Part shown: positions 5,143 to 47,009 of the stretch, piece by piece
How positions within the stretch are numbered: the stretch's first letter is position 1
Layout: each line of letters begins with the position of its first letter
DNA from: Paenibacillus sp. 481
GTDB lineage: Bacteria > Bacillota > Bacilli > Paenibacillales > Paenibacillaceae
Assembly (NCBI RefSeq): GCF_021223605.1
Contig: NZ_CP075175.1
Location: 3,489,501 to 3,553,500 of the forward strand
Length of the DNA: 64,000 bases
Direction: 5' to 3'
The notes under the pieces: model-generated
The model's input: only the letters and a program-made list of their open reading frames with translations
The model's database searches: none
What the model was told of the DNA's origin: nothing
Translations under genes and position numbers: made by a program

Positions 5143-5153
5143 CCGTGCTGATG

Positions 5154-5182
5154 TTGGATTGCCATTTATAATCGTGTATAAT
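5154..5182 (+). promoter_or_regulatory. Promoter upstream of btuF
   Basis: TTGGAT at 5154 and TATAAT at 5177 are spaced by 17 bases, a near-consensus sigma-A promoter. Another TATAAT lies at 5167. The transcript would start about 30 bases before the terminator-like hairpin at 5219, so the hairpin may act as an attenuator in the btuF leader. Confidence 0.6.
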
Positions 5183-5218
5183 TAGCTACAGTTAAAGCGA
5201 TTGCAAGAAAACGCATAC

Positions 5219-5249
5219 AAAACCCTGATCCGCAAGATCGGGGTTTTAT
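5219..5249 (+). terminator. Bidirectional terminator or attenuator before btuF
   Basis: AAAACCCTGATC (5219-5230) pairs with GATCGGGGTTTT (5236-5247) around a CGCAA loop, with one G-U pair. It terminates the ATP-grasp gene, but a good promoter lies upstream of it, so it may also control btuF. Confidence 0.8.
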
Positions 5250-5282
5250 TACGATTTACGATTAAAGGAGAGAAATGACATC

Positions 5283-6290
5283 ATGAACATGAGCTGGAGC
5301 AAAATAGGAACGACTGCTTTGGTACTTCTTATGGCGGTCAGTTTAGCAGCTTGCGGGCAGCCTAAAACGGTTGACAATAAAGCAGCAGAACAGCAGGGCC
5401 AAGGTACTGGTGCTGGAACGACCGCTGGCAATCAGGAGCAAGCTAAGGATCAACAACTAAAGACTACATATCCGTTAAAGATTAAAGATTCAACGGGCAA
5501 AGAATTTACATTTGAAAAAGCGCCTGAACGCATCATTTCGGTCGCTCCATCTGATACAGAAGCGTTGTTCGCGATTGGTCTTGGTGACAAAATCGTAGGC
5601 GTATCCGATCATGACGATTATCCAGCTGAAGCGGCAGCTAAGCCTAAAATGGGCGGGTTGGAGCCTAATGTGGAGGCGATTGTTGCTGCGAAGGCGGACA
5701 TCATTTTTGCAGGGGCATTAGGGGATGCAACGATTCAAAAATATCGCGACCTTGGTTTGAACATGATCAAGCTGGAAGCGAAAACATATGACGGCATTAT
5801 GAAAAATATCGAAACGTACGGCCTCATCACCGATCACCAGCAGCAGGCGAAAGCGGTCGTGGACAAGATGAGCAAGACACGTGCCGACATTCAAGCAGCC
5901 GTTACTGGAGTGAAAGAGAAGAAGAAAGTGTTTATTGAGTTCTCCCCAGGATGGACAGTCGGTAAAGGGGAGTATATGCATGATATGATTGAGCTGGCAG
6001 GCGGCATGAATGTGGCGGCGAGCGAAGAGGGCTGGATTGAAATGAGCGAGGAAAAAATCGTGAAATCGAATCCAGATGTCATCTTGTATGGTGAAGGTGT
6101 AGAGGACTTTAAGACGAAGCAAAAATTAAAAGATATTATACAAGGTCGCAGCGGTTGGAGCGGCATCAATGCGATGAAAAACAATCAGGTGATTGGCTTG
6201 GCCGATGATATGATTAGCCGTCCAGGACCACGCGCAGCTGAAGCGCTGCACGCGATAGCGAAGGCCATTTATCCTGAGCTCGTAAAATAG
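5283..6290 (+). CDS. btuF: ABC transporter substrate-binding lipoprotein, BtuF-like
   Basis: The first 25 residues form a lipoprotein signal (LMAVSLAACGQ, lipobox LAAC), so the protein is tethered outside the membrane. A Gln/Gly/Thr-rich linker follows, then a periplasmic-binding fold of the BtuF/FecB class: PERIISVAPSDTEALFAIGL, NVEAIVAAKADIIFAG and a C-terminal SRPGPRAAEALHAIA. It would bind cobalamin or a cobinamide precursor and deliver it to the permease and ATPase encoded next. B12 rather than iron-siderophore specificity is inferred from the cob genes that follow. AAAGGAG lies 13 bases before the chosen ATG; a second in-frame ATG is at 5289. Confidence 0.88.
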   Translation: MNMSWSKIGTTALVLLMAVSLAACGQPKTVDNKAAEQQGQGTGAGTTAGNQEQAKDQQLKTTYPLKIKDSTGKEFTFEKAPERIISVAPSDTEALFAIGLGDKIVGVSDHDDYPAEAAAKPKMGGLEPNVEAIVAAKADIIFAGALGDATIQKYRDLGLNMIKLEAKTYDGIMKNIETYGLITDHQQQAKAVVDKMSKTRADIQAAVTGVKEKKKVFIEFSPGWTVGKGEYMHDMIELAGGMNVAASEEGWIEMSEEKIVKSNPDVILYGEGVEDFKTKQKLKDIIQGRSGWSGINAMKNNQVIGLADDMISRPGPRAAEALHAIAKAIYPELVK

Positions 6291-6377
6291 GGCCTATAAC
6301 TGAGCTTATGGTGAGTTTGAGCTGGTGAAGTGATCTATGATTGTCCAGTTGAAGAAGACTCAATATAGGAGAAACGT

Positions 6378-7417
6378 ATGAAAAAAATAACATTTTACGG
6401 AGGAGCAGCGGTCACGCTTCTCCTTTTGTCCGTTATTGGATGTTTAGCGATTGGAACGGTTCAGATGCCGTTTGCTGAAACAGCACGGATTTTGTTGCAC
6501 CAAATTCCAGGGGTGCAAGCGTTGATTCCCGTCACTTGGGATGACATTTCGGCGCAAATTATGGTCGATATTCGATTGCCACGCGTTGTGTTGGCCATGC
6601 TAGTGGGAGCAGCGCTAGGTATTGCAGGAACCGCGTTTCAAGGTGTGCTGCGCAACCCGTTAGCTGATCCTTTTACACTTGGTGTATCTTCCGGCGCGTC
6701 TGTAGGAGCGGCATTTATTATTTATTTTGGATACCAGTATGCTTTATTTGGCGAATGGACGGTGCCTGCGGTTGCCTTTTTGACGGGCAGCATCACGCTA
6801 TATGTCGTCATGCTCCTTGCTTATGATGAAGGCAAGCTGCCTGTTACGATGCTTATTTTATCTGGAGTCGTCATCAATGCGTTTCTTGGCGCGGTCGTTT
6901 CCTTTTTGTGGCGATGACCAAGGAACCTGTGAATGAAGTGTTGTTCTGGTTAATGGGGAGCCTGTCCTTACGAGGGTGGACCTACGTGGCCATGCTTGCG
7001 CCTTATTTGATCGTGGCGCTTGTCGTATTGTTGTCGTATGCGCGACAACTTAATTTGCTGGCGCTAGGTGAGCGGCAAGCGATGCATGCAGGTATGCATG
7101 TGGAGCGGACGAAGTGGATCGTCCTGTTGGCAGCGACACTCGTTACGGCAGCAGCTGTGTCTGTGGCTGGTGTTATTGGCTTTGTTGGGCTTGTTGTACC
7201 GCATATGCTGCGGTTTATTGTTGGTTCAGACTATCGGATTCTGATGCCGTTATCCGCTGTGGGCGGTGCCATTTATGTGATGTGGGCGGATACGCTTGCC
7301 CGCTGGGTACTCGCGCCAATCGAAATTCCGCTGGGGGTAGTGACTGCGTTTATAGGCGCACCGTTCTTTGTATTTTTGCTAGTGAAGCATAAACGTGAGA
7401 AACGGAGGCTGACGTAG
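6378..7417 (+). pseudogene. btuC: BtuC-like permease interrupted by a one-base frameshift
   Basis: Two abutting frames make one FecCD/BtuC permease. The first (6378-6917) carries the N-terminal helices and the DIRLPRVVLAMLVGAALGIAG and RNPLADPFTLGVSSGAS motifs. It runs into a TGA right after GAVVSFL. The second frame (from about 6908) continues without a gap as AMTKEPVNEVLFWLMGSLSLRGW through AGVIGFVGLVVPHMLR, the loop that meets the ATPase. One extra T in the T5 run at 6903-6907 would restore a 346-residue protein, normal for the family. Sequencing or assembly error, or a recent inactivating mutation, are equally open. Flanking btuF and btuD are intact, which favours an error or a very young mutation. 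Confidence 0.85.
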
Positions 7418-30909: not shown

Positions 30910-32037
30910 TTATTTAAATTTCTGCCACAGCCATCGTAATCCCTTCTCGACGACTGGCGCTATATGATCTCCGGCAAATGAGCCGACAGTCCCACCAACA
31001 TAGGCACCTACGGCGGCTCCGACAGGCCCACCGATTAGCCCCAGCGTTCCACCTGCCAGCGCTCCCACGTAAGTGGCGCCCGATTTAACGATAACATTTG
31101 AAGCCGCTACTGCTCCTTCTTCGGCGGTCAGTGTTCCTTTGTGCCACTTCTCAACGACACCAAGACCTTCTGACGCCACATTAAACGTCACATTGATTGG
31201 GAACAACTTTTTGGCGATCATGCCGGGTATTTTGTTTGTCTTCATACCAGATTGATTTTGATTCACGCCGACGACAACGTTTTTTACCCAATGAGGGAAG
31301 TTGTTCGCGCGGTTAAGCCCTAGACCGAAGTTAACGCCTAGTTTGCTCGACCATTTATCAAAGCCTTTAAGGGCGCTTAGCACTCGCCCGGGGTGGTGGA
31401 ATTGCTTGTCCATCGAACGGGCCATCTTTTTCATAAACTCGTTGCTGCCGCGGCCTTTGACCCATTGTGCCGTATGAATGACGGCTCGTCCGTGATGTCC
31501 TGGCTTTCTATTGAAGCCGACGGTGCCGGACAGGACCATCGCTGCGGCAACACCGCTGTAAAAGGCGGTTCCGTACTTTTCTAGATTATCTCGCAGACCT
31601 AGGCCGCCGCCCATCCCACCGATTACAGAGGAGGTGACCGTTCCATCATGGGCTGCTCCGTTAGTACTTCCTGTGCTGGCTCCTGCTGTTGGGTCAGAAC
31701 CATGTGTCCCTGTAGAACTATCTACGCCAGCCGTACCGTTACTGTTTCCACCAGTCATGGCCCCATCGCTCGTTCCATCCGCCTGACTGAATCGTACAGC
31801 TATCGTGTTCAACTCTTGGCCGATGCCCTGCATCGTGGACACGCATTGACCTAACAGTGCGCGTGAACGATGAAAGTCGTGAAAAAATTGCTGCTGCGTG
31901 ATACCGTTCCAACGCGATTCTAAGGAAGAAAGTTGTCTGCTCAGTTGTTCAATGAGCTGTGAACTCTGTTCGCTTGCACGCGAAAATTGATTAGAGACTG
32001 CTGTTAGCTGTTCAGGGGTGACCTGAATTTTTGTCAT
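30910..32037 (-). CDS. WXG100 protein with C-terminal glycine-zipper domain
   Basis: Residues 1-95 form a WXG100-type helical hairpin: MTKIQVTPEQLTAVSNQFS, then SLESRWNGITQQQFF with W-x-G in the turn. A Gly/Ser/Thr-rich linker follows (about residues 95-150). The C-terminal 120 residues contain a glycine zipper (GALAGGTLGLIGGPVGAAV, AVGAYVGGTVGSFAGD) and end GLRWLWQKFK. Small-residue zippers of this kind occur in membrane-active toxins. It therefore looks like a type VII secreted effector that disrupts membranes, with the two following genes as helper and immunity candidates. GAGGTGG lies 5 bases before the ATG at 32037. Confidence 0.75.
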   Translation of the reverse strand: MTKIQVTPEQLTAVSNQFSRASEQSSQLIEQLSRQLSSLESRWNGITQQQFFHDFHRSRALLGQCVSTMQGIGQELNTIAVRFSQADGTSDGAMTGGNSNGTAGVDSSTGTHGSDPTAGASTGSTNGAAHDGTVTSSVIGGMGGGLGLRDNLEKYGTAFYSGVAAAMVLSGTVGFNRKPGHHGRAVIHTAQWVKGRGSNEFMKKMARSMDKQFHHPGRVLSALKGFDKWSSKLGVNFGLGLNRANNFPHWVKNVVVGVNQNQSGMKTNKIPGMIAKKLFPINVTFNVASEGLGVVEKWHKGTLTAEEGAVAASNVIVKSGATYVGALAGGTLGLIGGPVGAAVGAYVGGTVGSFAGDHIAPVVEKGLRWLWQKFK

Positions 32038-32126
32038 TGCATCCACCTCTAAGGAAAATGTACCCATTATATAGATTCATCTCTCATTAACCAAATCCTG
32101 CTTGGACCAAACAACGGAAATAAAAA

Positions 32127-34809: not shown

Positions 34810-35568
34810 ATGCGTCTAAAGCTTGTATTATCTAGTCCGAATGGGCTGGAGCTGCCGTTGGGCTACCAGCAAATGCTGCAAGGTATTATTTATCGAACTT
34901 TATCGAATCCAGATTTAGCAGAGTTTATGCATGATGAAGGATTTTTTTATGGAAAGCGCTCGTACAAATTGTTTACGTTCAGTCAGCTGCGAGGGAAGAG
35001 CACGGTGGATAAGCGGCGGGCGACGATTGCTTTTAGAGGTACCGTGACTTGGGAAATTAGTTCCGTTATTACGGAAATGATCGAGGATTTGGCGGTGCAA
35101 TTTTTGTTGTCTTCGTATATCGAAATGAATGGTCACCGCGTGCGGGTGCTGCAAGTGTCGACGGAGCGGGAGGAGCAATTGCCGAGTACGGGGCCTTGGC
35201 TTGTCCAAATGATTTCCCCTGTTACGGTCTACCAGACGGAATTGCGAGATGAGCGGAAATATACGAAGTATATGGAGCCTAGTGAGCCTTTGTTTGCCGA
35301 GTTGATTACACAAAATATGCAGCGTAAATATTGCGCTTTTACGGGCGAGAAGGATGTCGATTTCTCGATTCGTCCTGTTCAGGTAAGTACGCAGGATAAG
35401 GTGCTTACGTATTATAAGAAGTTTTTGATTGTGGGTTGGAAAGGAATCTATGAGCTGTCGGGTCCGGCGGATGTGCTTGCTTTTTCTTATTTTGCGGGAT
35501 TAGGCAGTAAGGCATCGCAAGGATATGGAATGTACCGGCTGATAGGTAGTGAGAAGACTAAAACGTAG
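34810..35568 (+). CDS. cas6: CRISPR endoribonuclease Cas6
   Basis: Cas6 cuts the precursor transcript within each repeat to give crRNAs. The 252-residue protein begins MRLKLVLSSPNGLELPLGYQ, has the RAMP fold, and ends with the Gly-rich loop GLGSKASQGYGMYRL typical of Cas6. A histidine-type active site is not obvious from sequence alone. GAAGGTGAG precedes the ATG. It is followed by a terminator, so it forms a unit with the array rather than with the effector operon. Confidence 0.92.
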   Translation: MRLKLVLSSPNGLELPLGYQQMLQGIIYRTLSNPDLAEFMHDEGFFYGKRSYKLFTFSQLRGKSTVDKRRATIAFRGTVTWEISSVITEMIEDLAVQFLLSSYIEMNGHRVRVLQVSTEREEQLPSTGPWLVQMISPVTVYQTELRDERKYTKYMEPSEPLFAELITQNMQRKYCAFTGEKDVDFSIRPVQVSTQDKVLTYYKKFLIVGWKGIYELSGPADVLAFSYFAGLGSKASQGYGMYRLIGSEKTKT

Positions 35569-35570
35569 AG

Positions 35571-35601
35571 TGGCCATTCGTTATTCGAATGGTCATTTTT
35601 T
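35571..35601 (+). terminator. Terminator after cas6
   Basis: TGGCCATTCG pairs with CGAATGGTCA around TTATT, followed by TTTTT, separating cas6 from the nuclease and effector genes. Confidence 0.75.
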
Positions 35602-35720
35602 ATATGTTCTTTTTTTACATTCTAAAATATGGATGGCGAAGAAAATATAATCTATACTATACTCATGGATTATTTTACTAATATATTACTTGAAATATTC
35701 CCTGAGAGCGAGGAGATAAA

Positions 35721-36728
35721 ATGACAGAAAAGAACGAAAAAAATGTAATGTTTAAAATTAATAAAAATTACAATTACATAAACACAATGATGGTAGACGA
35801 GCTGGAACTTTCTTCTGACCATGATGGATTAACTGGTAACTATCGTGAGGAAATGTGGTTGAAATTTTTTAGAAGTATTATTCCGCAGAAATACGCGATG
35901 GCACAGGGAGTCAAGATTATTGATTCAGATGGTAAAGTATCGAATGAAGTCGATATTGCGGTATTTGACGAGCAGTATACACCTTATGTATTTCAATATA
36001 ATACATTGAAGTTTATCCCGATTGAAGCGGTTGTTATCGCAATCGAATGTAAAAGTACAGGTTTGCCTGAAGATGACCTTATAGAATGGGCTAATAGAAT
36101 TGATAAGCTAAATACAAAAAATTCCGGAGTCGCCCGCATGGTAGCTGGTTACGCAACCGGATTAACAAATCCTACGCAAAAGAAAACACGTCCTCTAAAA
36201 ATATTGGCTTGCACAAAAACAGGCAAAACAGAACGAACGATAAAAAATTTAAAAGAGGACTACGGTAACCATTTCGATATCATTATCTCAAAAATGCAAA
36301 GAGAGAGCACGAAGTTTGAGGTCGTGATTCCATTTGAGACCAAATCACTGGAGTGGTGGGGGCAGCGATTAAACAATGTGAATGACGAGCTTTATACGGC
36401 TGAACAGTTAGAGAATAAGCTAGGGCTTCAGAATTTCTCTGCTAGCCCAAAGAAACTCACAGATGAGCAAATGAAACTGCAGAAACTCCAGACAGATTTA
36501 TGCCCTGAACTTTCATTTGATGATGAATTTTACCTTACCAACACACTAGCGGAATTAAAGGTAGAAGATAATCCTTTACTCTCTCTAAATTTCCAATTAA
36601 ATCAGCTCCTTATGCTTATTAATAACCCCATGCTGTTCCCGCATTTTGCGTACGCCAAACAATTTAACAAGATTATTAACGATGAGAAAAAGAAAGAGAA
36701 AGCCGAACAGCAAAGCGTAAAGCAATAA
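35721..36728 (+). CDS. DUF6602-like PD-(D/E)xK nuclease in CRISPR locus
   Basis: The first 130 residues match the DUF6602 pattern: GNYREEMWLKFFRSIIPQKY (Glu near residue 40), SNEVDIAVFD (Asp 77) and VVIAIECKST (Glu 109, Lys 111). These are the classical acidic, Asp and Glu-x-Lys positions of a PD-(D/E)xK nuclease. The C-terminal 200 residues are helical and unassigned; no CARF or SAVED sensor is recognisable. AGCGAGGAG precedes the ATG. It stands first in the type III operon, 36 bases before cas10, so it is a candidate accessory effector, although a passenger defence gene is equally possible. Confidence 0.75.
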   Translation: MTEKNEKNVMFKINKNYNYINTMMVDELELSSDHDGLTGNYREEMWLKFFRSIIPQKYAMAQGVKIIDSDGKVSNEVDIAVFDEQYTPYVFQYNTLKFIPIEAVVIAIECKSTGLPEDDLIEWANRIDKLNTKNSGVARMVAGYATGLTNPTQKKTRPLKILACTKTGKTERTIKNLKEDYGNHFDIIISKMQRESTKFEVVIPFETKSLEWWGQRLNNVNDELYTAEQLENKLGLQNFSASPKKLTDEQMKLQKLQTDLCPELSFDDEFYLTNTLAELKVEDNPLLSLNFQLNQLLMLINNPMLFPHFAYAKQFNKIINDEKKKEKAEQQSVKQ

Positions 36729-36764
36729 CGACCAACCCATACAAGCAGAGAGCGAGGGTAATAT

Positions 36765-38315
36765 ATGGCTGCCTATGTATTCATAGATGTATCGCATAAG
36801 CAAGAATATATTTTTAAACATAATAAGTTGAAAGACAATTTGTACAATTCATTTGTGATTAAAGTAGTCAGCGAGGTTGATGATATTGCTGATCTTGATA
36901 CCTCTGAATATATAAAAGCTACTTTAAAGGGACATTTAAATGAAAATTTCAAAGGCAGTCACGATGTTAAATATTCTGGTGGAGGCAACAGTATTATACG
37001 GTTTGAAACAGAGGAAGCTGCCAAAAGTTTTGTGAAGAATTACTCAACAAAAGTGTTGAAGGACTATCCTGACTTGGAGCTGTATATGAGTATCGTGGAT
37101 GATTCTGAAATCACTGCGACCGAAAAAGGAGACAAGGAAATTCGCAGGAAGCTGCATCAAAAGGCGGATGAGCTGAAAGATAAGCGTCAGGTTAAATTTA
37201 GACGCTGGACGTATGGTGTGGAGAAGATTGATGAGACGGGACAAGCTGAGCTTAGCGGTGCTGTAAAGCGTGAACATAAGCTGTCTAAGAGGTATTTATA
37301 CCACAAGTTTGAAGAGAAGACACAGGGCACGTCAATTAAGGTGACACAAGAATTACAAGATTACAAGAGCACCGAGGAAGGTAAAAGCTATATCGGGGTT
37401 ATCGTGATTGACGGCAATAAAATGGGAGATATGGTAAACCAAATATCTTCTTTTGAAGAACTGGGGCAATTCAGTCAGTGCATTGGTGAGTTGTATGAAT
37501 CGGCAGTCATTGATGTGCTAAAAGCATTTCAACAAGAAGGTACATCATTATTAATCACGCCAATCGTGATGGCTGGAGATGATATTTGCTTAATTGTGCA
37601 GTCCGATCATGCCATTGAAATAGCGGGAACCATTGTAACACGTATTCAGGAGTTGTCCCGTGATGAAAAGTATAGAGCTGCTTTAGGGAGATTCATGGAC
37701 GGTATGCAAGAGATGACAGCTTGTGCGGGAGTTGCGATTGCCAGATACAATCACCCGTTTTTTGAGACGGTAAAAACGGCCGAAATGCTGTGCAAGCGAG
37801 CCAAAGAAGAGATTTATCAAGTGAAGACGGACGATAACGGTGTCGCCAATGCTTCCTTTATTCATTGGAACGTTATTCAAGGTCAAGTACTTTCGGCACA
37901 AACCTATGAAGACGGTGTGAGGCATGGTAACGACGTAGAGCGGTTTCATATGAAGCCGTTGCGGATTGATCAGACAGAAGCCGTAGAGAACGGTATTTAC
38001 AGCTATGAATCGTTTGTACACGCAGTGAAAGAGATACAGCAAGCGCAGGTGAATCAAGAATTAAGCAGCTCTGTGCTGGAAGGGATAAAAAACGTGATTT
38101 ACTCTGGCAAGGAATCGTACGAACTGTATTTTGACAAAAATCAAACCGAAGCATGCCATAAGGTTACGCAAATCATGCATGAGGCGTTCAATTGCAATCG
38201 TTATGGTGCAATGCAAGAGGAGCAAGGGAAATCTCTGATATATACCTATTTGCTGAATGATGTGATAGATGCACTACCTTATTTGAACCAGAAGCGGGAG
38301 GCTGCCAAGCGATGA
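36765..38315 (+). CDS. cas10: Cas10-like protein lacking HD domain
   Basis: The 516-residue protein has two palm domains: YVFIDVSHKQEYIFKHNKLKDN at the start and VIVIDGNKMGDM (about residue 214) paired with PIVMAGDDICLIV (about 269-272). The GGDD motif is AGDD, so the two metal-binding aspartates are kept and cyclic oligoadenylate synthesis is conceivable. The N-terminal HD nuclease of most Cas10 is absent, and I see no Cys pairs for the usual zinc finger. DNA cleavage by HD is therefore not available to this complex. It overlaps the next gene by 4 bases. Confidence 0.88.
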   Translation: MAAYVFIDVSHKQEYIFKHNKLKDNLYNSFVIKVVSEVDDIADLDTSEYIKATLKGHLNENFKGSHDVKYSGGGNSIIRFETEEAAKSFVKNYSTKVLKDYPDLELYMSIVDDSEITATEKGDKEIRRKLHQKADELKDKRQVKFRRWTYGVEKIDETGQAELSGAVKREHKLSKRYLYHKFEEKTQGTSIKVTQELQDYKSTEEGKSYIGVIVIDGNKMGDMVNQISSFEELGQFSQCIGELYESAVIDVLKAFQQEGTSLLITPIVMAGDDICLIVQSDHAIEIAGTIVTRIQELSRDEKYRAALGRFMDGMQEMTACAGVAIARYNHPFFETVKTAEMLCKRAKEEIYQVKTDDNGVANASFIHWNVIQGQVLSAQTYEDGVRHGNDVERFHMKPLRIDQTEAVENGIYSYESFVHAVKEIQQAQVNQELSSSVLEGIKNVIYSGKESYELYFDKNQTEACHKVTQIMHEAFNCNRYGAMQEEQGKSLIYTYLLNDVIDALPYLNQKREAAKR

Positions 38316-39079
38316 GGATCGATCAAGATTACAAAATTGAGGTGCGTCTTGATAGCGAAGCGATATTTAGCAGCGGTGAAAAGGAGCGCAATCTCGTTCA
38401 GACCAAAGTGTTGGCAGACCGTCACGGCTTCGTTTATTTTCATGCGAAATCCTTTAAAGGCCAGCTGAAACGGCAGGCGTTCTGGTTGCTGGAGAGGTAT
38501 AGTGAAATTGATAAGGAGCTGGAGAAGTCCTTTTTTTCATCGATTGTCGTCTTGTTTGGGATTAACAAGGAAGAAATAGAGCTATTCGACATTGAAAAGT
38601 TAGCATCAGATGATGAAACATTCAAAGGGAACTATGTTCAACAGCAACCCGGTGTATTGAGATTCGGTCATTTGGAGCTGGATGAACAAGTTAAAAGACG
38701 TTTTACCGCGCTGCAATCCGAAGATCAAGCAACCGGGTATTTTCGAGTAACGCCACACGATTTGATCGAAGCGCAAACTCATATTCGAACAGGCATTCAA
38801 TTACAGGACGGCATAGTTAAAGACCGAATGCTAACCACGTACCATACCGTGAAACAGGGGTTAGTCTTCTACTCTTCGCTTACCTTTGACTCTACTATTT
38901 TCAAAGAAGAGGATGGAAATAAGGAGCTTCATATTGAAAATTTGCAGCGTATTGTCTCCTCATTCCGACGAATTGGCGCGGGCATACATAGAGGGCGCGG
39001 CGAAGTTACCGCAAGACTGCTCGTGGATGGGCAAGCGACATGCAGCAAGCACGATAGCAAAGTAGGTGGAACCGCATGA
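38312..39079 (+). CDS. Csm3-like Cas7 RAMP protein
   Basis: The 255-residue protein has the single RAMP fold of Cas7-type backbone subunits: FHAKSFKGQLKRQAFWLLERY as the helix after strand 1 and the Gly-rich loop RRIGAGIHRGRGEVTARL at the C-terminus. A catalytic Asp of Csm3 type (target RNA cleavage) could not be assigned with certainty. Start and stop overlap both neighbours by 4 bases, so it is translationally coupled with cas10 and csx10. Confidence 0.85.
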   Translation: MRIDQDYKIEVRLDSEAIFSSGEKERNLVQTKVLADRHGFVYFHAKSFKGQLKRQAFWLLERYSEIDKELEKSFFSSIVVLFGINKEEIELFDIEKLASDDETFKGNYVQQQPGVLRFGHLELDEQVKRRFTALQSEDQATGYFRVTPHDLIEAQTHIRTGIQLQDGIVKDRMLTTYHTVKQGLVFYSSLTFDSTIFKEEDGNKELHIENLQRIVSSFRRIGAGIHRGRGEVTARLLVDGQATCSKHDSKVGGTA

Positions 39080-40746
39080 AACGGTATAGTGTCATCGAAA
39101 TTGTAAACCTTGAGCCTCTGAAAATCGGCGCGGTGGGAAGTAAAGCGAACCAAACGGAGCCTTCAAAAGATTATGTGCCAGGTTCTACGATTAGAGGGGC
39201 CATGATTAGTCAATTAATCCACAATAACTCTTTTGATGAGCATCAAAAGGAAATTCTTACGAAGTTGGAGTGCTATAACGCTTATCCTTATCACGGCGAA
39301 CATATCTATTTGCCTACACCGCAACATTTGCGGATGAACAAGCATCAGTGGCGAAAAGCAAAGGTGCTGGCAAGAAGCAGCGATGAAGAACAGATGCAGA
39401 CGATCAAGATATCTAATTTATTGGATACTTGTAAGGAGCAGGACGGAGAGCAGGATAAAAATACGCTCGAGTTCCGGTTTCTATCCGTGCAAGATAAGAA
39501 CATCAGAGGAATGAACGCAGTCAAGGAGTACCGTCTCCATCACAATATGAGTCGCAAGCAGGACGAGAAGGAACGAGACAATCTGTTCCGCTATCAGGCG
39601 CTGGCAGCAGGCCATACATTTCGGGCGATTGTCAGCTATGATCAATCCATTGAGCATGTCATTGTTCCAGTTCTCAAGCAATCCACGAAATGGTATTTGG
39701 GTGGTGCAAAAGGTTCGGGCTATGGCTTATGTCAACTTCGTCTCATTGCGCACGTTCAGACTGATTTTCATGCCGCGAAAAAAGCTCTGGGTCTGCATAC
39801 AGCTGCTATGCCAACGGCCGATAAGCTAACGATAACTTGCTTGTCAGATTGCATATGCCGCGATACATATGGACAACCCGTCAATGCTATTCCGACGGAT
39901 GAAATAGAAAGCTTAATCGGCGTGCCAGTCAAGTTAAAGCGACAATATGTGCAGACAGGCATTACAGAAGGGTATAACGCGACATGGAAAGCTCGCTATC
40001 CAAAAGAAACAACGTTAAAGGCGGGATCTGTGCTTGAATACGAGTTACAAAAAGAATTAACACAGCAAGAAAAAATCCAAATGATTCAAGCGCTAGAAAG
40101 CAAGCTTATTGGTTATCGGACGCAAGATGGTTTCGGTTGGATTGGGGCGGAGATGTCAAATCCAGCACAGCAATTGCTAGTGGTAAAAGCCGTACAGCCA
40201 TTGTCGGAGCAGCAGAAGCACAATGCGGCTGCAATGCATCAGGAACAACAAAGAACAGCGGAAGTAGATCGGGTTCTGGACATCATTATCTCAGGATTGA
40301 AGCCAGCCAAGGAGCGTTGGCTGGAAATGATTTATGTAAAATCACGGAGCCAGTCTTCGGAAGGGGAGCCGGATTCTAATCGTATCCTCATTTCCGATCA
40401 ATTAAATCGTCACCAGCTCGAACAAATGAGAAAATTGTTGGAGCAACGACAGAAGCAGTTGGAGGAAGGTGAATTACCAACTATGCCTGATTCTATCGAA
40501 AGGTATTACAAAAAGGACAATCGTTTGTGCTCTGTTGCGGGGTGCAATTTTACAGAAATATTAGAGTTTATATGCACAACAAATCGTCAATCCAATGGCT
40601 TAATGCAATTTGCTAAACAACGATTGGACAGCACCAAGGGCGAATTGTTCTATTCTAAGGCCTCGTTAAAGGAAAAGCTATTTATTGCTGAACTGTTGCA
40701 CGCAGGTTTATATATTGAGCAAAGGAGGGCGGGCAAAAGTGAATAA
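39076..40746 (+). CDS. csx10: Csx10-like RAMP protein (type III-D marker)
   Basis: A 556-residue RAMP protein. The head VIEIVNLEPLKIGAVGSKANQT and DYVPGSTIRGAMISQL match the remembered Csx10 family, the Cas5-type subunit that marks subtype III-D. Gly-rich loops are at LGGAKGSGYGLCQL and YRTQDGFGWIGAEM, suggesting two RAMP folds. It would bind the 5' handle of crRNA. The final 180 residues (Gln/Glu/Arg-rich helices) are unassigned. The stop overlaps the next start by 8 bases. Confidence 0.8.
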   Translation: MKRYSVIEIVNLEPLKIGAVGSKANQTEPSKDYVPGSTIRGAMISQLIHNNSFDEHQKEILTKLECYNAYPYHGEHIYLPTPQHLRMNKHQWRKAKVLARSSDEEQMQTIKISNLLDTCKEQDGEQDKNTLEFRFLSVQDKNIRGMNAVKEYRLHHNMSRKQDEKERDNLFRYQALAAGHTFRAIVSYDQSIEHVIVPVLKQSTKWYLGGAKGSGYGLCQLRLIAHVQTDFHAAKKALGLHTAAMPTADKLTITCLSDCICRDTYGQPVNAIPTDEIESLIGVPVKLKRQYVQTGITEGYNATWKARYPKETTLKAGSVLEYELQKELTQQEKIQMIQALESKLIGYRTQDGFGWIGAEMSNPAQQLLVVKAVQPLSEQQKHNAAAMHQEQQRTAEVDRVLDIIISGLKPAKERWLEMIYVKSRSQSSEGEPDSNRILISDQLNRHQLEQMRKLLEQRQKQLEEGELPTMPDSIERYYKKDNRLCSVAGCNFTEILEFICTTNRQSNGLMQFAKQRLDSTKGELFYSKASLKEKLFIAELLHAGLYIEQRRAGKSE

Positions 40747-42205
40747 GGCGATAACGTACTATTTTACGATTCGAGCGATTTCTCCTGTTTATTTTGGTGA
40801 CAGTGAAAAAGGATCGGTGGTGAAAAATTGGAAAGGAGAGCCGATTGTGTTAGGCAATGCACTTGGTGGGGCACTAAGGGATTATGTTCAGCGAATTTTG
40901 CAATCTTTGAATAAGGATGGACAGGAACAAGATAGGAAAAAGGTAGAGGAATTGATCTATGGAAGTTTAGGCGGTCAAAGGAAAGGTTCTTCTACGCTTG
41001 AGGAGAGTAGCATTTATATTAGTGACGGACATATTCATTACGCTGAGCTTGGCAAAAAGGAAGGAACGGCAATTGACCCGCAATATGGATCAGCAAAAGA
41101 TCAGCATAAATATACGTTAGAGTATTTACCGATAGGGACAGAAATTCATTTTCGAATTGAATGTGATGTTTTGTTAGATAGAGAGACAGAGACAGCCAAA
41201 GAGGAGCAACAATTGCGTGTACAAGATTTTCATACCATGATTGGCACTTGGGCAAAAGGAATTGCCACTCAACAACTACTGCTAGGCGGTCAAAAAAGCA
41301 ACGGCTTCGGCAGGTTTGAGCTAATAGAGCTGCAAAGGGTAGAGTTTGCACTGAACAGCAAGGATGCGCTGGATGAGTATATTTTTCGGCGTGAAAGTGC
41401 AGAGCGTACACCCATTGACTGGCAGGCGTTAGCACAACTAGAAACCAAGCAAGAACAAGTTCAAGTAATCTCGTTCTTCATGTCGGGCTATTTTCCATAT
41501 GGGGTTTATCAGAGCTTTAACTTAGATAAAAATCGAGTGAAACAGGAGCGTGAATTGACGGGCTTGCAGACTAGACAAAGTGGCTATTACATGCCTGCTA
41601 CCAGTCTGAAAGGTCTGATGAGGAATGAAGTTGCTTTGTTAATCAAGCGTATGCTCATGGATGAACCTATAGATGCCGACGAATTGAATAACAAAGTGAA
41701 TGCAAAATGTGCGGAATGGTTCGGCAGTTTGAATCAGAGAGGTAAAGTCGTATTTTCCGATATCGAATTTGAAAACAGTAAGCTTGTACAAATGGAGAGG
41801 CCTAAACAGAAAGACGAAAATGGTGCTGAGCCAGATAAACATCCCGTCTATATTAAAATTGATCGCTTAACAGGCGGGGGGTATTCCAAAGCCTTGAAAC
41901 ATCAGCAAGAAGTTCAGGGGGCAGCTACTATTCGGTTTGAGCTTGTAAAAGGTGTGAACAGCGGGCCAGAGGAGGAAGAAGGATTTATTTTTCCATTGGT
42001 GTATGTGCTGCGTAGAATAGGAGCGGGTCATGTTCCACTCGGTGGTAGAACTGTAATTGGCCTAGGGCAATTCGCGGCAGATAAAGTCAAAATTGAAATC
42101 GGTCAAAACTGTACGGAGATTGAAACGACCGAGGCGTTAACGGAACAAAGCAAGGCATGGTTGAAGCAGCATTTTGAGGACTTTAAAGGGTGGTGCAAGA
42201 AGTGA
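40739..42205 (+). CDS. Double RAMP (Cas7-Cas7 fusion)
   Basis: Two RAMP units are fused in one chain of about 488 residues. The first (about 1-205) has PVYFGDSEKGSV and ends in LLLGGQKSNGFGRFELI. The second (about 235-455) has FMSGYFPYGVYQSF, PATSLKGLMRNEVALL and the loop LRRIGAGHVPLGGRTVIGLGQF. Fusions of this type are known in III-D loci and lead towards the single-effector III-E type. The GTG at 40739 is chosen (AAAGGAGG ten bases upstream), overlapping csx10. The next gene overlaps the stop as GTGA. Confidence 0.82.
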   Translation: MNKAITYYFTIRAISPVYFGDSEKGSVVKNWKGEPIVLGNALGGALRDYVQRILQSLNKDGQEQDRKKVEELIYGSLGGQRKGSSTLEESSIYISDGHIHYAELGKKEGTAIDPQYGSAKDQHKYTLEYLPIGTEIHFRIECDVLLDRETETAKEEQQLRVQDFHTMIGTWAKGIATQQLLLGGQKSNGFGRFELIELQRVEFALNSKDALDEYIFRRESAERTPIDWQALAQLETKQEQVQVISFFMSGYFPYGVYQSFNLDKNRVKQERELTGLQTRQSGYYMPATSLKGLMRNEVALLIKRMLMDEPIDADELNNKVNAKCAEWFGSLNQRGKVVFSDIEFENSKLVQMERPKQKDENGAEPDKHPVYIKIDRLTGGGYSKALKHQQEVQGAATIRFELVKGVNSGPEEEEGFIFPLVYVLRRIGAGHVPLGGRTVIGLGQFAADKVKIEIGQNCTEIETTEALTEQSKAWLKQHFEDFKGWCKK

Positions 42206-42633
42206 AGATGCATACGATACTTGATCAGTATGAGTGGGGCAAACTTATAGCTGATGACAGTAATTATGTCATCGCTCATTTATTGGACAAGGTGCTGATT
42301 GGGAAAGTAGCTGAACTAGAGGATAAGAAGAGGGTTGCTTTTGAAAAAGCTCTTGAAAACAAAACGTTGCTTGAGGCACATTTCTTTAACGAGAGGCGAG
42401 AAGTTTTTGTGGGCAGACACGATCAGCAGTTGGTCGTATATGCACCGTTAGAGCATACGAATGGCTCAGAGGACTCGGAGCCGCCAGTTGTACTGCGCTC
42501 ATATGCTGTGGAACAAAATTGCAATGCAAACGGATATAAATTTTTGGAAGTGAAAGAGTATTTTAATTACGACGAGGAAAGTCATTTAGCATATGTGGAA
42601 AAAACGGTTTTATATCGACTGGTAAAGGGGTGA
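42202..42633 (+). CDS. Csx19-like (TIGR03984-type) protein
   Basis: About 143 residues, recognisable by LLEAHFFNERREVFV followed by a strand-rich tail (YKFLEVKEYFNYDEESHLAYVEKTVLYRL), which matches my recollection of the small Csx19/TIGR03984 protein of III-D operons. Its role is not established; it may be the small subunit of the complex. The GTG at 42202 overlaps the previous stop; an ATG at 42208 is an alternative. It overlaps the following gene by 4 bases. Confidence 0.6.
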   Translation: MKMHTILDQYEWGKLIADDSNYVIAHLLDKVLIGKVAELEDKKRVAFEKALENKTLLEAHFFNERREVFVGRHDQQLVVYAPLEHTNGSEDSEPPVVLRSYAVEQNCNANGYKFLEVKEYFNYDEESHLAYVEKTVLYRLVKG

Positions 42634-45026
42634 ATAACATGCGTAATGATAGATATAAACACACAGGACATAAGGATAAAGGTAAGAAGCAAGGAAATAA
42701 ATCCAATCCCTCTGTAAATGTAACGCTTCCGTACGATTTTGTACCATTTGCAGAAGAAGAGAATCGAATCTACCCGTACGAGTGCACGGAACAAAACAAC
42801 AATCTTCCGAAGCATAATGATTTTCAAGGATTAAGCGGGACAATTGACTATGAAATTACACCTTATTCTGATCTAGCCATCGAAGTCAGAACAACGTGGA
42901 ATGAGGAGCTATTTTTTAGCGGAAGTTCTATACGGGGGAAAATACGTTCAAATGCGGAAATATTGAGCGCCAGTTATCCGGAATTTATTGACCGCTCGGA
43001 GATGGTTTATAGGGATATTTCGAGTCCTCTGTACCGCAATAGAGCTCAATCACAACACGGAATACCCAATAGAGCGAGTAGGGACTTAGGAATAGAAAGA
43101 ACGATTCAGGTTGGATTTTTAAGAAAAATAGGTAATCAATTTTATGTCACTCCAGCAAAAAAGTTTGATGATAAATATTTTTTGTCCATCAAGGAGCATC
43201 GTTTGATGCATATGGGCGTTGCTGGGAAACAATACTATAGTATTTACGAATGGAATAATAAAAACATTATCGAATTTAACAATTTACAGTCTGAAATTGA
43301 GAAAAAAACAAAACAAATAAAGCTGAAAAGAGAGCTGCTAAAAGGGAAACTAAATATTATCGAAGGGGAAATCACTAAAATTTTTACAGACATTTTTTCG
43401 TTGTTTAAAAAGCTAGGCGATATAAAGATAAAAGGCCTTGATCATGTTAAAGACCAATTATTGTTGAAATTAAAAGAGATTAAACCTTATAGTTTGACAG
43501 AAAAAGAGCTGTTTTTACTTCATGAACTATATCAGTTATATGCTGATAGATGGGGATGTAAAGTGAAAATGTATCTAATGTACAACAGGCTCAGACCAAA
43601 CGAAGATTTTATCCCTTATCAAAGAAGTGTCTATTATAAAAAAGCAGCTAATAAGCAAGGTATTGAATATATATCAACCAATCATTCAACAGAAGTGAAA
43701 CAAAAGGGTTATCTATTTAACTCAACTAATGCGAGTTCGAAGCGGAGTCACTATTTTGTACTTGGCCCCAATGACGAATTGAAAAATGAATATTTAGTAC
43801 CTCAATCCGTAATTAATGGATACAATAGAAATCTGAAAAAATTCAGGATTACCAATTCTAAACGGAATGATATTGTAAAATCATTTTATAATATTTTCGA
43901 TAATTATGAAGCAGTTATTCAATTAATGATTTCGTCAAATGAAGTTAAAGAAGAGGATGCTGCACAAGGAGTTATTGTATTTTATCATAGTTGTGAACCT
44001 TCAGTTGAAAAAGAGATTGTAAGTATTGGTCGAACACCGTACTTCAAAGTTCCATATAAAAATCAACTTGAAGATTTAATTGGAGTTAGAGAGAACGGCA
44101 AGTTGGATTATGCCAATGCTTTATTTGGTTTCGCGCCTGATAGTCAAAGAAAAGAGCCCAATTATCATATTGCTTACAAGTCGAGGCTTCGTTTTAGTCC
44201 AGTTGATATTCCCTATAAAGGAACTTTTGAGCCTGAAGTAGTTAAAGATTTTGTACTTATGACACCTTCTGCAACAGCGAACGGGATGTATATTCAACAA
44301 AATGAAGCAGAAAATATAACGTATGAAGACGATGAAGTCAAATTAAACGGATACAAATATTATCATGTACTAAAAGAGCACATTGTCCCAACACAAAAAA
44401 CAAAACAGATTGAACAAACATCTAAAGAAGATGAAAACACTAGCAATATGTTCTCCACACGAAAAGTGTTGAAGGCTGACGAGCTTAATAAGGCTACAGA
44501 CAAGATTCGAGGTAAGGTTTATTTCCGTAATTTATCCGATGAAGAATTAGGCCTGCTGCTGCTTAGTCTGGATTGGAGAGAGGTACTTACTTCTAAAAAG
44601 TATAGCGAGAATGTAACCGATCTTAAAGCTTTGCAAGATAAATCCTATGAGTTAATAGGTGGAGCCAAACCTTATGGATACGGCAAGGTGAAAATTGAAA
44701 TCAAAAGTTTGCAGCTTGAAAAAAAGGGTAATGATTTTGATTCTCTTATCTTGAACCCGACTGAAGCGCATTCGGAACGTGCTGTGTACATCGATCAATT
44801 TATTACTGTTATGGGCGGCGAACAGTATTTTAAGAAAAATCAATTTAAGCCATTTATTCAGAGTAAACTGGAAAAGAGCTTTAATACGAACGGGGATGGC
44901 ACGGTAAGAAATCCAAAACATGTTAACTGGGATAATATAACTGAAGAGATAGGTAAGGAAAAAAGAAGTGGTAAAGGAGGAGGATACCCTAAATCATGGC
45001 GGTTGAGTAAATCGAAATCAGAATAA
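42630..45026 (+). CDS. Large TIGR03986-like CRISPR RAMP protein
   Basis: A 798-residue RAMP protein beginning with a basic tail and then VTLPYDFVPFAEE, the typical start of the TIGR03986 family found in III-D loci. The motif LFFSGSSIRGKIRSNAEIL and the C-terminal loop IGGAKPYGYGKVKIEI are of the RAMP type. A coiled-coil segment (about residues 220-290, Lys/Glu/Ile-rich) separates domains. It may cap the complex or bind the target. The stop is 18 bases before hairpin copy 2, so the effector operon ends here. Codon use in this gene is more AT-rich than in flanking housekeeping genes. Confidence 0.8.
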   Translation: MNNMRNDRYKHTGHKDKGKKQGNKSNPSVNVTLPYDFVPFAEEENRIYPYECTEQNNNLPKHNDFQGLSGTIDYEITPYSDLAIEVRTTWNEELFFSGSSIRGKIRSNAEILSASYPEFIDRSEMVYRDISSPLYRNRAQSQHGIPNRASRDLGIERTIQVGFLRKIGNQFYVTPAKKFDDKYFLSIKEHRLMHMGVAGKQYYSIYEWNNKNIIEFNNLQSEIEKKTKQIKLKRELLKGKLNIIEGEITKIFTDIFSLFKKLGDIKIKGLDHVKDQLLLKLKEIKPYSLTEKELFLLHELYQLYADRWGCKVKMYLMYNRLRPNEDFIPYQRSVYYKKAANKQGIEYISTNHSTEVKQKGYLFNSTNASSKRSHYFVLGPNDELKNEYLVPQSVINGYNRNLKKFRITNSKRNDIVKSFYNIFDNYEAVIQLMISSNEVKEEDAAQGVIVFYHSCEPSVEKEIVSIGRTPYFKVPYKNQLEDLIGVRENGKLDYANALFGFAPDSQRKEPNYHIAYKSRLRFSPVDIPYKGTFEPEVVKDFVLMTPSATANGMYIQQNEAENITYEDDEVKLNGYKYYHVLKEHIVPTQKTKQIEQTSKEDENTSNMFSTRKVLKADELNKATDKIRGKVYFRNLSDEELGLLLLSLDWREVLTSKKYSENVTDLKALQDKSYELIGGAKPYGYGKVKIEIKSLQLEKKGNDFDSLILNPTEAHSERAVYIDQFITVMGGEQYFKKNQFKPFIQSKLEKSFNTNGDGTVRNPKHVNWDNITEEIGKEKRSGKGGGYPKSWRLSKSKSE

Positions 45027-45043
45027 GGTTGCTTTAACGTTTT

Positions 45044-45085
45044 GTCGTCGATTTCTAATAGCTTATAGTTACAGGGATCGACGAC
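45044..45085. repeat. GTCGTCGA hairpin, copy 2 (end of CRISPR-Cas operon)
   Basis: Same stem ends as copy 1 with a diverged middle (TTTCTAATAGC, ACAGGGA). 135 bases downstream, TACCTATAAG (45220) equals ten bases of the CRISPR repeat, a possible relic of a lost array. The remaining sequence to 45373 has no gene and must hold the promoter of the receptor gene. Confidence 0.8.
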
Positions 45086-45373
45086 AATTCACAAAATTGA
45101 TGACGATATTTTGCTTCTGTTACATAATCGTTTATATGATTGGATTTTATGAGACGATGGATTCCCCAGTTTACTCTATGCTTAGTTATATCGTATGAGT
45201 TGAAATAGGGATTCTTATATACCTATAAGTAAGTATACCCAGCCATTCTTTTACACGCTCCTTCGATCGACAGCAATACTCGAAAAAAGTCGAAAAATGA
45301 AATAATTTACAAATTTATTATTATAAAGTAATATATAAATAGTTTCGCTGTACAATCGAAGGAAGGTGAGGAT

Positions 45374-46666
45374 GTGGGAACTGATACAGCAATCCTGTCC
45401 ACGCTCGGTCAGCTTATTCAGCAATATCGGCGCGACCAAGGCGTAACTTTTCAACAACTGTCTGATCGCACAGGAGTGAAGCAAGAGTCCATCGTAAATA
45501 TAGAGAACGGCATATCGAAAAGGCCAGACTATTTTACAATTCAGTCTCTAGCAACTGCGCTAAACATACCTTTAATCGAGATAGTAGAGCGCTTTCTTCT
45601 TATTGAACAGCGTTCAGAAGAACTTTTACATATGCTTAAAGAATCCGCATCTATGAAAAATGCCTCTATCACAACTAACATTGCCTTTCATTTTTTGGCT
45701 TCACAAGACGAGGATAGCTTTACGTTACTGCACAAACTGTATGATACGGTACAGCAGCTCATTTGTGACGCTCCAACCAAACTATTTTTATACGATATCA
45801 TTATTAATTTTGGACGAAGCCACGGTATTCAGTCATGTACAGCAAAAGGAGCGCTACAAAAATATTTTGTGGAGCGGAACGATTTTAGTAAGCTGCAAGA
45901 AACGTTCTATTCAGGAAAGTACGTGCTGCACTACGTCCCTTATTTAAGTAATGAGGAGCGTATTTCGCTCTATTACAAATTAGGTGTGCACGCCTACAAT
46001 TTGCGCAAGTTTGATGAGTGTATTGAATTGTGCGAGAAAGTGATTATTGAAGATGAAGTGGATAGTAACTTTAAGGCGTACTCTACGCTAGCTATTTGTT
46101 CTTCCTATTACTATCAGGAAAAATACGACCTAGCTGAGGTCTATCTTGGCATTCTGAGTTCATTTGATAGTTCAATTGTGGACGAGAATATCTTGCTGAT
46201 GACAGGCTTGCTTAACAGTAAGAAGGGTGAGGTCGATCTCGCGATCAAGCAGCTTCAGCAAAGCTTTCAGACAGCCGCCATCAAAATTAATGTTGTTACG
46301 GAGCTGTTTGATTTGTATTTGTTCAAGAACAACTTTGAGGCGATCGAGGATTTGTTGAAGATGGAGTTTCAATTTACAGAGTCGAATATGATGAATCCGT
46401 ATCTTTACTCCGAGTATGCACACTACTATTTGAAGAAGGGAGGATATTTAAGTAGAGTAGGCCAATGCGATGAGGCTGTTGATTCTCTCGTAAAAAGTAT
46501 CGCCATGTTCGGCAAAATTAATGGTCTTGAAGGTGTGTACGAGTGCATGGAGCTTATGTTTCATGCTTTGAACAATAACTCGAATTCAAAGGCAGAAATG
46601 CAGGAGAAAGTGACAAGACTCTTTATGGATTTGAAACTGGTGAATGTAAAGGAGAATCCAAAATGA
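45374..46666 (+). CDS. HTH-TPR regulator of RRNPP type
   Basis: The 430-residue protein has an N-terminal XRE-type helix-turn-helix (GQLIQQYRRDQGVTFQQLS, then GVKQESIVNIENG) and, from about residue 90, a repetitive helical region of TPR type (for instance ISLYYKLGVHAYNLRKFDEC). This is the plan of PlcR, NprR, Rgg-like and AimR regulators, which bind re-imported signal peptides in the TPR groove. Decisive support is the gene that overlaps its stop: a 44-codon exported peptide. It starts with GTG, with GGAAGG 7 bases upstream. Target promoters are not visible, but autoregulation is common in the group. Confidence 0.8.
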   Translation: MGTDTAILSTLGQLIQQYRRDQGVTFQQLSDRTGVKQESIVNIENGISKRPDYFTIQSLATALNIPLIEIVERFLLIEQRSEELLHMLKESASMKNASITTNIAFHFLASQDEDSFTLLHKLYDTVQQLICDAPTKLFLYDIIINFGRSHGIQSCTAKGALQKYFVERNDFSKLQETFYSGKYVLHYVPYLSNEERISLYYKLGVHAYNLRKFDECIELCEKVIIEDEVDSNFKAYSTLAICSSYYYQEKYDLAEVYLGILSSFDSSIVDENILLMTGLLNSKKGEVDLAIKQLQQSFQTAAIKINVVTELFDLYLFKNNFEAIEDLLKMEFQFTESNMMNPYLYSEYAHYYLKKGGYLSRVGQCDEAVDSLVKSIAMFGKINGLEGVYECMELMFHALNNNSNSKAEMQEKVTRLFMDLKLVNVKENPK

Positions 46667-46797
46667 GAAAAATCATAATGTGCAAATTTGTCGTTACTGT
46701 ATTGGGAGCGACCCTTTTGTTTACTCCAGCGGCTGTGAGTACATATCAGAATGAAACCAGTTTTTTTGCGGAAGGTCCTGTGGTTCCGTGGTCTTGA
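46663..46797 (+). CDS. Exported pro-peptide, probable signal peptide pheromone
   Basis: A 44-residue gene overlapping the regulator's stop as ATGA. AAAGGAG (46648-46654) is 8 bases before the ATG. The product has a basic start (MRKIIMCKF), a hydrophobic core (VVTVLGATLLF), a likely signal-peptidase site at PAAVS, and a short tail ending FAEGPVVPWS. Size, overlap and layout mirror PapR, NprX and Phr peptides, in which the C-terminal 5-8 residues are the mature signal. The mature pheromone is thus probably within GPVVPWS; the exact cut is inference. A terminator follows. Confidence 0.75.
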   Translation: MRKIIMCKFVVTVLGATLLFTPAAVSTYQNETSFFAEGPVVPWS

Positions 46798-46943
46798 AAT
46801 TGAATCGGTAGCGGATTCGCGGTCCATATAGGTGAGCAACAGACGAGGAGTTACATACTTGGGTATGACCTGATCGTAGTAGTAAATAACAAAGAAAATT
46901 CCCCCGACAAAAGAACAATTTCTTTTGATCGCCAAATTAGAGA

Positions 46944-46985
46944 GGGATGTCTTGACGTCATTTTCGATGACTTTGGAGACATCCC
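46944..46985 (+). terminator. Terminator after pro-peptide gene
   Basis: GGGATGTCT (46944) pairs with AGACATCCC (46977), with inner GTCAT/ATGAC pairing, then TTATTT. A related sequence lacking the outer stem is at 3745-3780. The 146 bases between peptide gene and hairpin contain no gene. Confidence 0.7.
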
Positions 46986-47009
46986 TTATTTAGTTATTTC
47001 ATTCCATTT

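Follow-up and report, generated by a model that had tools for sequence, protein, structure and literature searches.

What is the role of a gene for a predicted helix-turn-helix (HTH) and tetratricopeptide repeat (TPR) protein whose end is overlapped by a gene of only 44 codons, as found in the 64,000-nucleotide stretch of the Paenibacillus sp. 481 genome analyzed here (the window, to which all coordinates refer unless another locus is named)? The most probable answer, to which we assign a probability of about 0.8, is that the two genes constitute an RRNPPA-type peptide-pheromone cassette, most likely of cluster/subfamily 08 of Paenibacillaceae. This reading draws on the gene layout, the conservation of the propeptide and its tail, the predicted fold of an HTH and nine TPRs, and sequence kinship; the export, processing, uptake and binding of the peptide and the direction of regulation we infer. 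The elements of the cassette are:

45374 to 46666, plus strand: receptor gene (GTG start, TGA stop), 430 residues, with an N-terminal HTH and nine predicted TPR-like helical pairs (residues 81-427)
46663 to 46797, plus strand: propeptide gene (ATG start, TGA stop), 44 residues, with a basic start and a hydrophobic core, sharing ATGA with the receptor stop
46765 to 46794, plus strand: codons for the tail FAEGPVVPWS, the predicted mature-signal region, by a motif common to relatives and a presumed maturation

The ATGA overlap lies at 46663-46666, and an AGGAG ribosome site ends 8 bases 5' of the ATG of the peptide gene; the coordinates, frames and overlap that the earlier note gave for this HTH-TPR gene and its tiny follower are exact. 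The N-terminus of the peptide, MRKIIMCK, has three K/R in 8 residues, and its top hydrophobic 15-mer starts at residue 4 with a mean Kyte-Doolittle value of 2.17. A secretion-like filter, set after the peptide had been seen, called for at least two K/R in the first ten residues and a 15-mer of mean at least 1.9 beginning by residue 14; it is passed by 4 of 391 open reading frames (ORFs) of 30-60 residues in the window. As the peptide is the sole secreted-looking product (1/21) among the short ORFs directly following an ORF of at least 150 residues, a chance origin of its gene is unlikely. Its cleavage sites are putative placements.

Conservation among relatives provides the strongest test of this layout. 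Matches to the receptor at E <=1e-92 were recovered in 9 of 19 genomes of the genus, its own included, at ten places besides the window, and among 295 sampled genomes of the bacterial family matches at <=1e-98 are confined to this genus (8 genomes). The nearest receptors are 48-49% identical to that of the window. Six of the ten best relatives are intact and unfused, and four are either broken (G007, G011, G001) or fused (G018:C1). Each of the six is followed by a propeptide ending in [PAG]W, whose start lies no more than 4 bases before or 13 bases after the last base of the receptor stop. Four of these have a single copy of the tail motif (FGGGHDVDIPW, FSGGKDAEIAW, FSGGGVINPW and NLGDHGW) and two have two copies (GDGPSIPWS...FSGGDVIAPW and GGDFIGPWS...GGGDDVYVPW); the window tail, FFAEGPVVPWS, is similar to these. 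The check proposed in the earlier note, namely conservation of the small gene and its tail beside homologues, was thus run, with a positive outcome for intact, unfused relatives, and its assignment of an RRNPP-type receptor with a pro-peptide is borne out by a layout and tail conserved in relatives. In a tree of 51 receptors the window protein groups with L075, L087, L089, L091 and four fused receptors (support 100/98), with L092 joining next (100/99); L093, the source of NLGDHGW, is placed elsewhere.

The two-copy propeptides, of 64 and 73 residues (L027 and L028, at loci L087 and L075), have a first motif followed by S (GPSIPWS, FIGPWS), as in the window, and a second at the C-terminus (VIAPW, VYVPW). 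Propeptides with multiple pheromones have been reported, for example Phr of phages phi3T and phi105 (PMC11343458); unlike the two relatives, the window peptide carries one copy. These forms also bear on the alternative that the small gene encodes a membrane-active or toxic peptide under an HTH-TPR repressor, with no signal. A small, hydrophobic product encoded behind a regulator gene would suit such a role, but we consider it very improbable: the shared motif is located in the C-terminal tail, the double-motif form is one reported for pheromone propeptides (PMC11343458), and the receptor has a predicted fold of the TPR type.

The AlphaFold2 model of the receptor comprises the HTH and nine helical pairs, with a mean predicted local distance difference test score of 89.1. 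Its top structure matches are TPR proteins, with RRNPPA receptors among them, level with generic TPR proteins; NprR-NprX, Rap-Phr, AimR-AimP and PlcR-PapR are all represented. With these four systems the window pair shares the TPR fold and an adjacent propeptide. It differs from Rap-Phr in possessing an HTH, the loss of which founds the Rap subfamily (PMC12700828), and from PlcR-PapR in its nine helical pairs as against the five TPRs of PlcR, which is placed in a five-TPR clan (PMC12700828). At the sequence level, Pfam recognizes HTH_3 (36.2 bits, cut-off 23), which is matched by all 38 members of receptor alignment A3, and TPR_1 falls just below its cut-off (24.6 against 27.8 bits). In sequence searches against solved structures the best matches were repressors with an HTH and TPR proteins of designed or generic type, with ComR at E 0.063 via the HTH. 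Matches in NCBIfam were all below cut-off, and a collection scan using the receptor as a single protein gave no match. A viral fold search with the model retrieved an unnamed protein of 425 residues (TM 0.65).

The receptor belongs to a large set of paralogs. The source genome, a single contig of 5.69 Mb, has 27 receptor matches at E <=0.001, of which 23 are full-length loci of 392-459 residues, the window copy included, and the remainder fragments. A propeptide can be assigned downstream of 14 of the 23, with tails such as GGSAPWDTKH, SPWIGPK, DNGWSKQ and NDPGWK; the other 9 have no assigned propeptide, which slightly lowers our confidence in the pheromone-cassette reading. We hand-picked 39 curated receptor-propeptide pairs out of 65 receptors of full length, namely 23 own, 38 external, L075 and three from plasmids, leaving aside receptors with no clear propeptide, the near copies L100, L107 and L121, and L118. 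Tryptophan occurs within the last 14 residues in 33 of the 39 propeptides and within the first 26 in 2. Receptor and tail co-vary significantly in these pairs, but the signal part does so as well.

To which known family, then, does the pair belong? Subfamily 08 of Paenibacillaceae is described as a sister of AloR with an HTH, nine TPRs and DPG in its peptides (Moi 2025, PMC12700828), and occurs on chromosomes, plasmids and phages (PMC10075063; PMC12700828); the numbered RRNPPA subfamilies are candidates, according to a figure legend (PMC12700828). The window receptor has an HTH and nine predicted TPRs as well, likewise with a secreted-type propeptide after it, and its family has the same distribution over chromosomes, plasmids and phages of Paenibacillaceae. 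In B. laterosporus LMG 15441, the strain of plasmid pBRLA33, one plasmid is reported to hold one AloR-AloP and one novel cluster 8 system (Bernard 2023, PMC10075063). On pBRLA33, the product of BRLA_RS22615, WP_003338811.1, is 33.3% identical to the window receptor over 96% of the query and is followed by a peptide of 44 residues ending DYDPGY, and that of the neighboring BRLA_RS22620 is 45% identical to the AloR13-type receptor of genome G325. The receptor and propeptide of the window family adjoin the AloR-type receptor at 3974-7073 of this locus (L067). A second plasmid of the strain has an AloR relative and no match to the window family. As relatives of both families adjoin on pBRLA33, and the paper reports a single system of each kind, AloR-AloP and cluster 8, on a plasmid of this strain, the window pair is by deduction most likely a member of RRNPP cluster 8, equivalently RRNPPA subfamily 08. 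The earlier note had called the pair probably new: this holds for the pair and the letters of its signal, but not for the receptor family, which by the same deduction has already been published as a computational cluster/subfamily. The DPG reported as widespread in peptides of the subfamily is absent from the window tail GPVVPWS, which has PW instead; among the 39 curated tails DPG occurs in 6, D[PTNHG]G in 14 and PW in 21.

An AloR-AloP system, as in Paenibacillus polymyxa, is the obvious competitor in view of the common bacterial family, gene order, HTH-TPR receptor and large paralog sets. Furthermore, a Spo0E-like gene lies downstream of several AloR-AloP systems (PMC7425212), as it does in relatives of the window receptor. 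Other members of the two receptor families give weak cross-matches, over 119 residues at E 0.002-0.003 and over 50 residues of the HTH at 7e-4, which fit distant kinship. Nevertheless, this identity is extremely improbable. Known clusters have been recognized by at least 30% identity over 80% mutual coverage, with AloR13 standing for AloR-AloP (PMC10075063). Against the 470-residue AloR13-type receptor of G325, identified by its SHGRGG propeptide, the window receptor gives an alignment of just 59 residues (E 0.42) and so falls outside this rule; against the G325 neighbor and BRLA_RS22620 the values are E 0.56 and 0.38. Relatives of both families moreover adjoin as separate genes on pBRLA33, and the AloP13 signal, SHGRGG (PMC7425212), differs from that of the window. 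Of 394 genomes from the bacterial family, 56 contain a DNA pattern for SHGRGG, most probably by chance; a secreted-type propeptide with that end passes an ORF filter at 3 of 30 such loci (G320, G325, G308), and two further stretches with the pattern, in G068 and G404, belong to other genes.

The recurrent partner of the receptors is a Spo0E-like gene (PF09388), found in all 19 genomes of the genus among the matches listed. Of the 23 receptors in the source genome, at least 10 are followed within 0.8 kb by such a gene in the same orientation (14 of the 16 matches in that genome being listed). By the matches listed, a separate Spo0E-like gene lies within 0.8 kb downstream in six of the ten best relatives; two have one in the frame of the receptor and two have none within 1 kb. 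For 34 unfused named receptors, with four fused ones counted apart, a motif count, in which some genes are missed, places a Spo0E-like gene within 1 kb downstream in 15 and upstream in 2. Alo13 has been shown to control spo0E (PMC7425212). Given this report and the Spo0E-like gene just downstream of most of the closest relatives, the output that the clade inherited probably concerns Spo0A phosphorylation and the timing of sporulation. Related receptors followed by a gene annotated Spo0E or Spo0E family are also seen on mobile elements, namely Brevibacillus phage SecTim467 (L070), P. larvae plasmid pPLP3 (L069) and a P. thiaminolyticus plasmid (L068).

In the window, no Spo0E-like gene follows the peptide among the PF09388 matches listed, and a tblastn search for a remnant there returned nothing credible, its best piece being 13 residues on the other strand (E 0.035). 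The window copy has therefore probably left the ancestral Spo0E output. This same loss, together with stops in the related receptors of G007, G011 and G001, could be taken to mean that the cassette is decaying and that the pair, intact only through recent disabling, has no present role. The receptor type does appear to decay often in the genus, with stops in G007:C7, G011:C1 and G001:C1; ORFs for PW-motif propeptides persist beside the broken G007 receptor. We nonetheless hold decay of the window pair to be unlikely, as both ORFs, their ribosome sites and the overlap are intact and the tail is still recognizable even though the nearest receptors are merely 48-49% identical.

A further arrangement within the clade is the fusion of receptor and Spo0E-like domain. 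Four full-length receptors carry the latter at their C-terminus (39-43 bits, cut-off 23), as does the broken receptor of G011:

L088, 6001-7326: fused HTH-TPR receptor with a C-terminal Spo0E-like domain
L089, 8914-10251: the same
L091, 7962-9281: the same
L091, 9359-10696: the same

The four form one branch of the tree (96/99) and have no secreted-looking propeptide of their own; those of P. alvei DSM 29 and sp. NAIST15-1 come after an intact receptor-propeptide-Spo0E set. Among the matches listed, at least 14 Spo0E matches in 8 of 19 genomes of the genus lie in open frames of at least 324 residues. We found no mention of such fusions in the literature listings searched, and the words fusion and fused are absent from the main text of PMC10075063, which is no proof of absence. 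The lack of an own propeptide and the intact sets alongside, in P. alvei and its near relative, suggest that fused receptors possibly use the signal of their neighbor. We tentatively propose that the clade displays three wirings: a receptor and propeptide with a separate Spo0E-like gene; a receptor-Spo0E fusion that possibly heeds a neighboring signal and targets Spo0A itself; and the window receptor, released from its link to Spo0E and redirected to other genes.

Under the pheromone-cassette reading, the 44-residue propeptide would be exported through its N-terminal hydrophobic segment and then processed outside the cell, leaving a C-terminal fragment, roughly 7-9 residues long, that includes GPVVPWS. 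The mature peptide would be re-imported by an oligopeptide permease and bind the TPR superhelix of the receptor, altering the binding of its HTH to DNA. The window receptor would then most likely regulate its own promoter and targets elsewhere. Two candidate elements lie upstream of it:

45279 to 45294, plus strand: CTCGAA-N4-GTCGAA (CTCGAAAAAAGTCGAA), two boxes ten bases apart, a candidate regulator site upstream of the likely receptor promoter
45306 to 45334, plus strand: likely receptor promoter, TTTACA, 17 bases, TAATAT, from a promoter scan and the over-representation of ATTTACA

The scan gave 6 promoter-like sites against 5.5 expected by chance, so it proves nothing alone; ATTTACA is over-represented upstream of the receptor family, in 18 of 60 sequences (23 own and 37 external receptors, L121 excluded from the latter) against 4.9 in shuffles. 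GTCGAA occurs in all five propeptide-to-Spo0E spacers of relatives that were examined (0/5000 shuffles); two of these, from L089 and L091, nearly duplicate each other, and a third, from L093, belongs to a locus that the receptor tree places outside the clade. On the forward strand GTCGAA and CTTTTT are the only hexamers common to the four non-redundant spacers. Upstream of receptors it is found in 3 of 8 cases, or 2 of 7 without L091 (47/5000 shuffles). GTCGAA was rejected as a family-wide operator: it occurs upstream of 1/23 own and 3/37 other receptors and downstream of 4/23 and 8/37, none clearly above shuffles. The tandem GTCGAA-type pattern occurs 4 times genome-wide against 5 for a reversed control, and hence no regulon can be derived from it. 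The tandem boxes at ten-base spacing (45279-45294) may be similar to Spo0A sites. CTCGAA-N4-GTCGAA is no more than a lead to a possible operator.

Could the pair instead govern the genes around it, as the earlier note suggested for the adjoining CRISPR island and secreted proteins? The type III CRISPR genes end 347 bp upstream of the receptor on the same strand, and downstream of the pair lie a convergent DUF5704 gene and a gene with a copper-amine-oxidase domain. Control of the type III CRISPR, DUF5704 and copper-amine-oxidase-domain genes has adjacency in its favor, in the window only, but appears highly doubtful given the 347-bp spacer and the convergent orientation downstream. A search for 15 window ORFs (30910-52693) around ten related receptors found, besides receptors, only an AraC-type regulator (2/10, 32% identity over 92 residues). 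DUF5704 matches occur in 19 of 19 genomes of the genus; in the eight other genomes that hold a related receptor they are on a different contig from it or separated from it by 80 kb or more. As these neighbors are not found again next to the related receptors surveyed, where the recurrent partner is the Spo0E-like gene, the proposed CRISPR and secretion regulon is unsupported. Synteny with the P. thiaminolyticus plasmid L068, which has a receptor, a Spo0E family gene, a gene for 1019 residues and a copper-amine-oxidase-domain gene in an order reminiscent of the window, was considered and rejected; the window DUF5704 and copper-amine-oxidase-domain proteins are unmatched there. A possible shared terminator separates the convergent genes:

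46943 to 46986, unstranded: inverted repeat with perfect 10-bp arms between the convergent genes, missing from the terminator-scan list

The CRISPR set (34810-45026) comprises Cas6, Cas10/Cmr2 and several RAMP proteins, with a DUF6602 gene (35721-36728) between the first two and a protein of 147 residues (42190-42633) that has no Pfam match. Directly after its last gene is a perfect 11-bp inverted repeat, TTGTCGTCGAT/ATCGACGACAA, at 45042-45087, with 24 bp between the arms. Farther upstream, on the minus strand (30910-32067), a protein of 385 residues, whose N-terminal domain is WXG100 and which also gives weak glycine-zipper matches, resembles a type VII secretion substrate.

PMC12700828 treats subfamily 08 as a candidate pheromone family that has yet to be validated by experiment. 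What makes the window pair valuable is that its family is tied to Spo0E, that its clade includes receptor-Spo0E fusions and that its signal motif lends itself to synthetic-peptide tests. With this clear motif, Spo0E-like genes as the likely ancestral output and natural variants in the form of two-copy propeptides, fusions and Spo0E loss, the family can be tested in B. subtilis, as was Alo13. If the proposed wirings are true, the fusion would represent an independent invention, besides Rap, of a peptide-gated sporulation phosphatase pathway, and the window pair would be a pheromone switch with a changed output.
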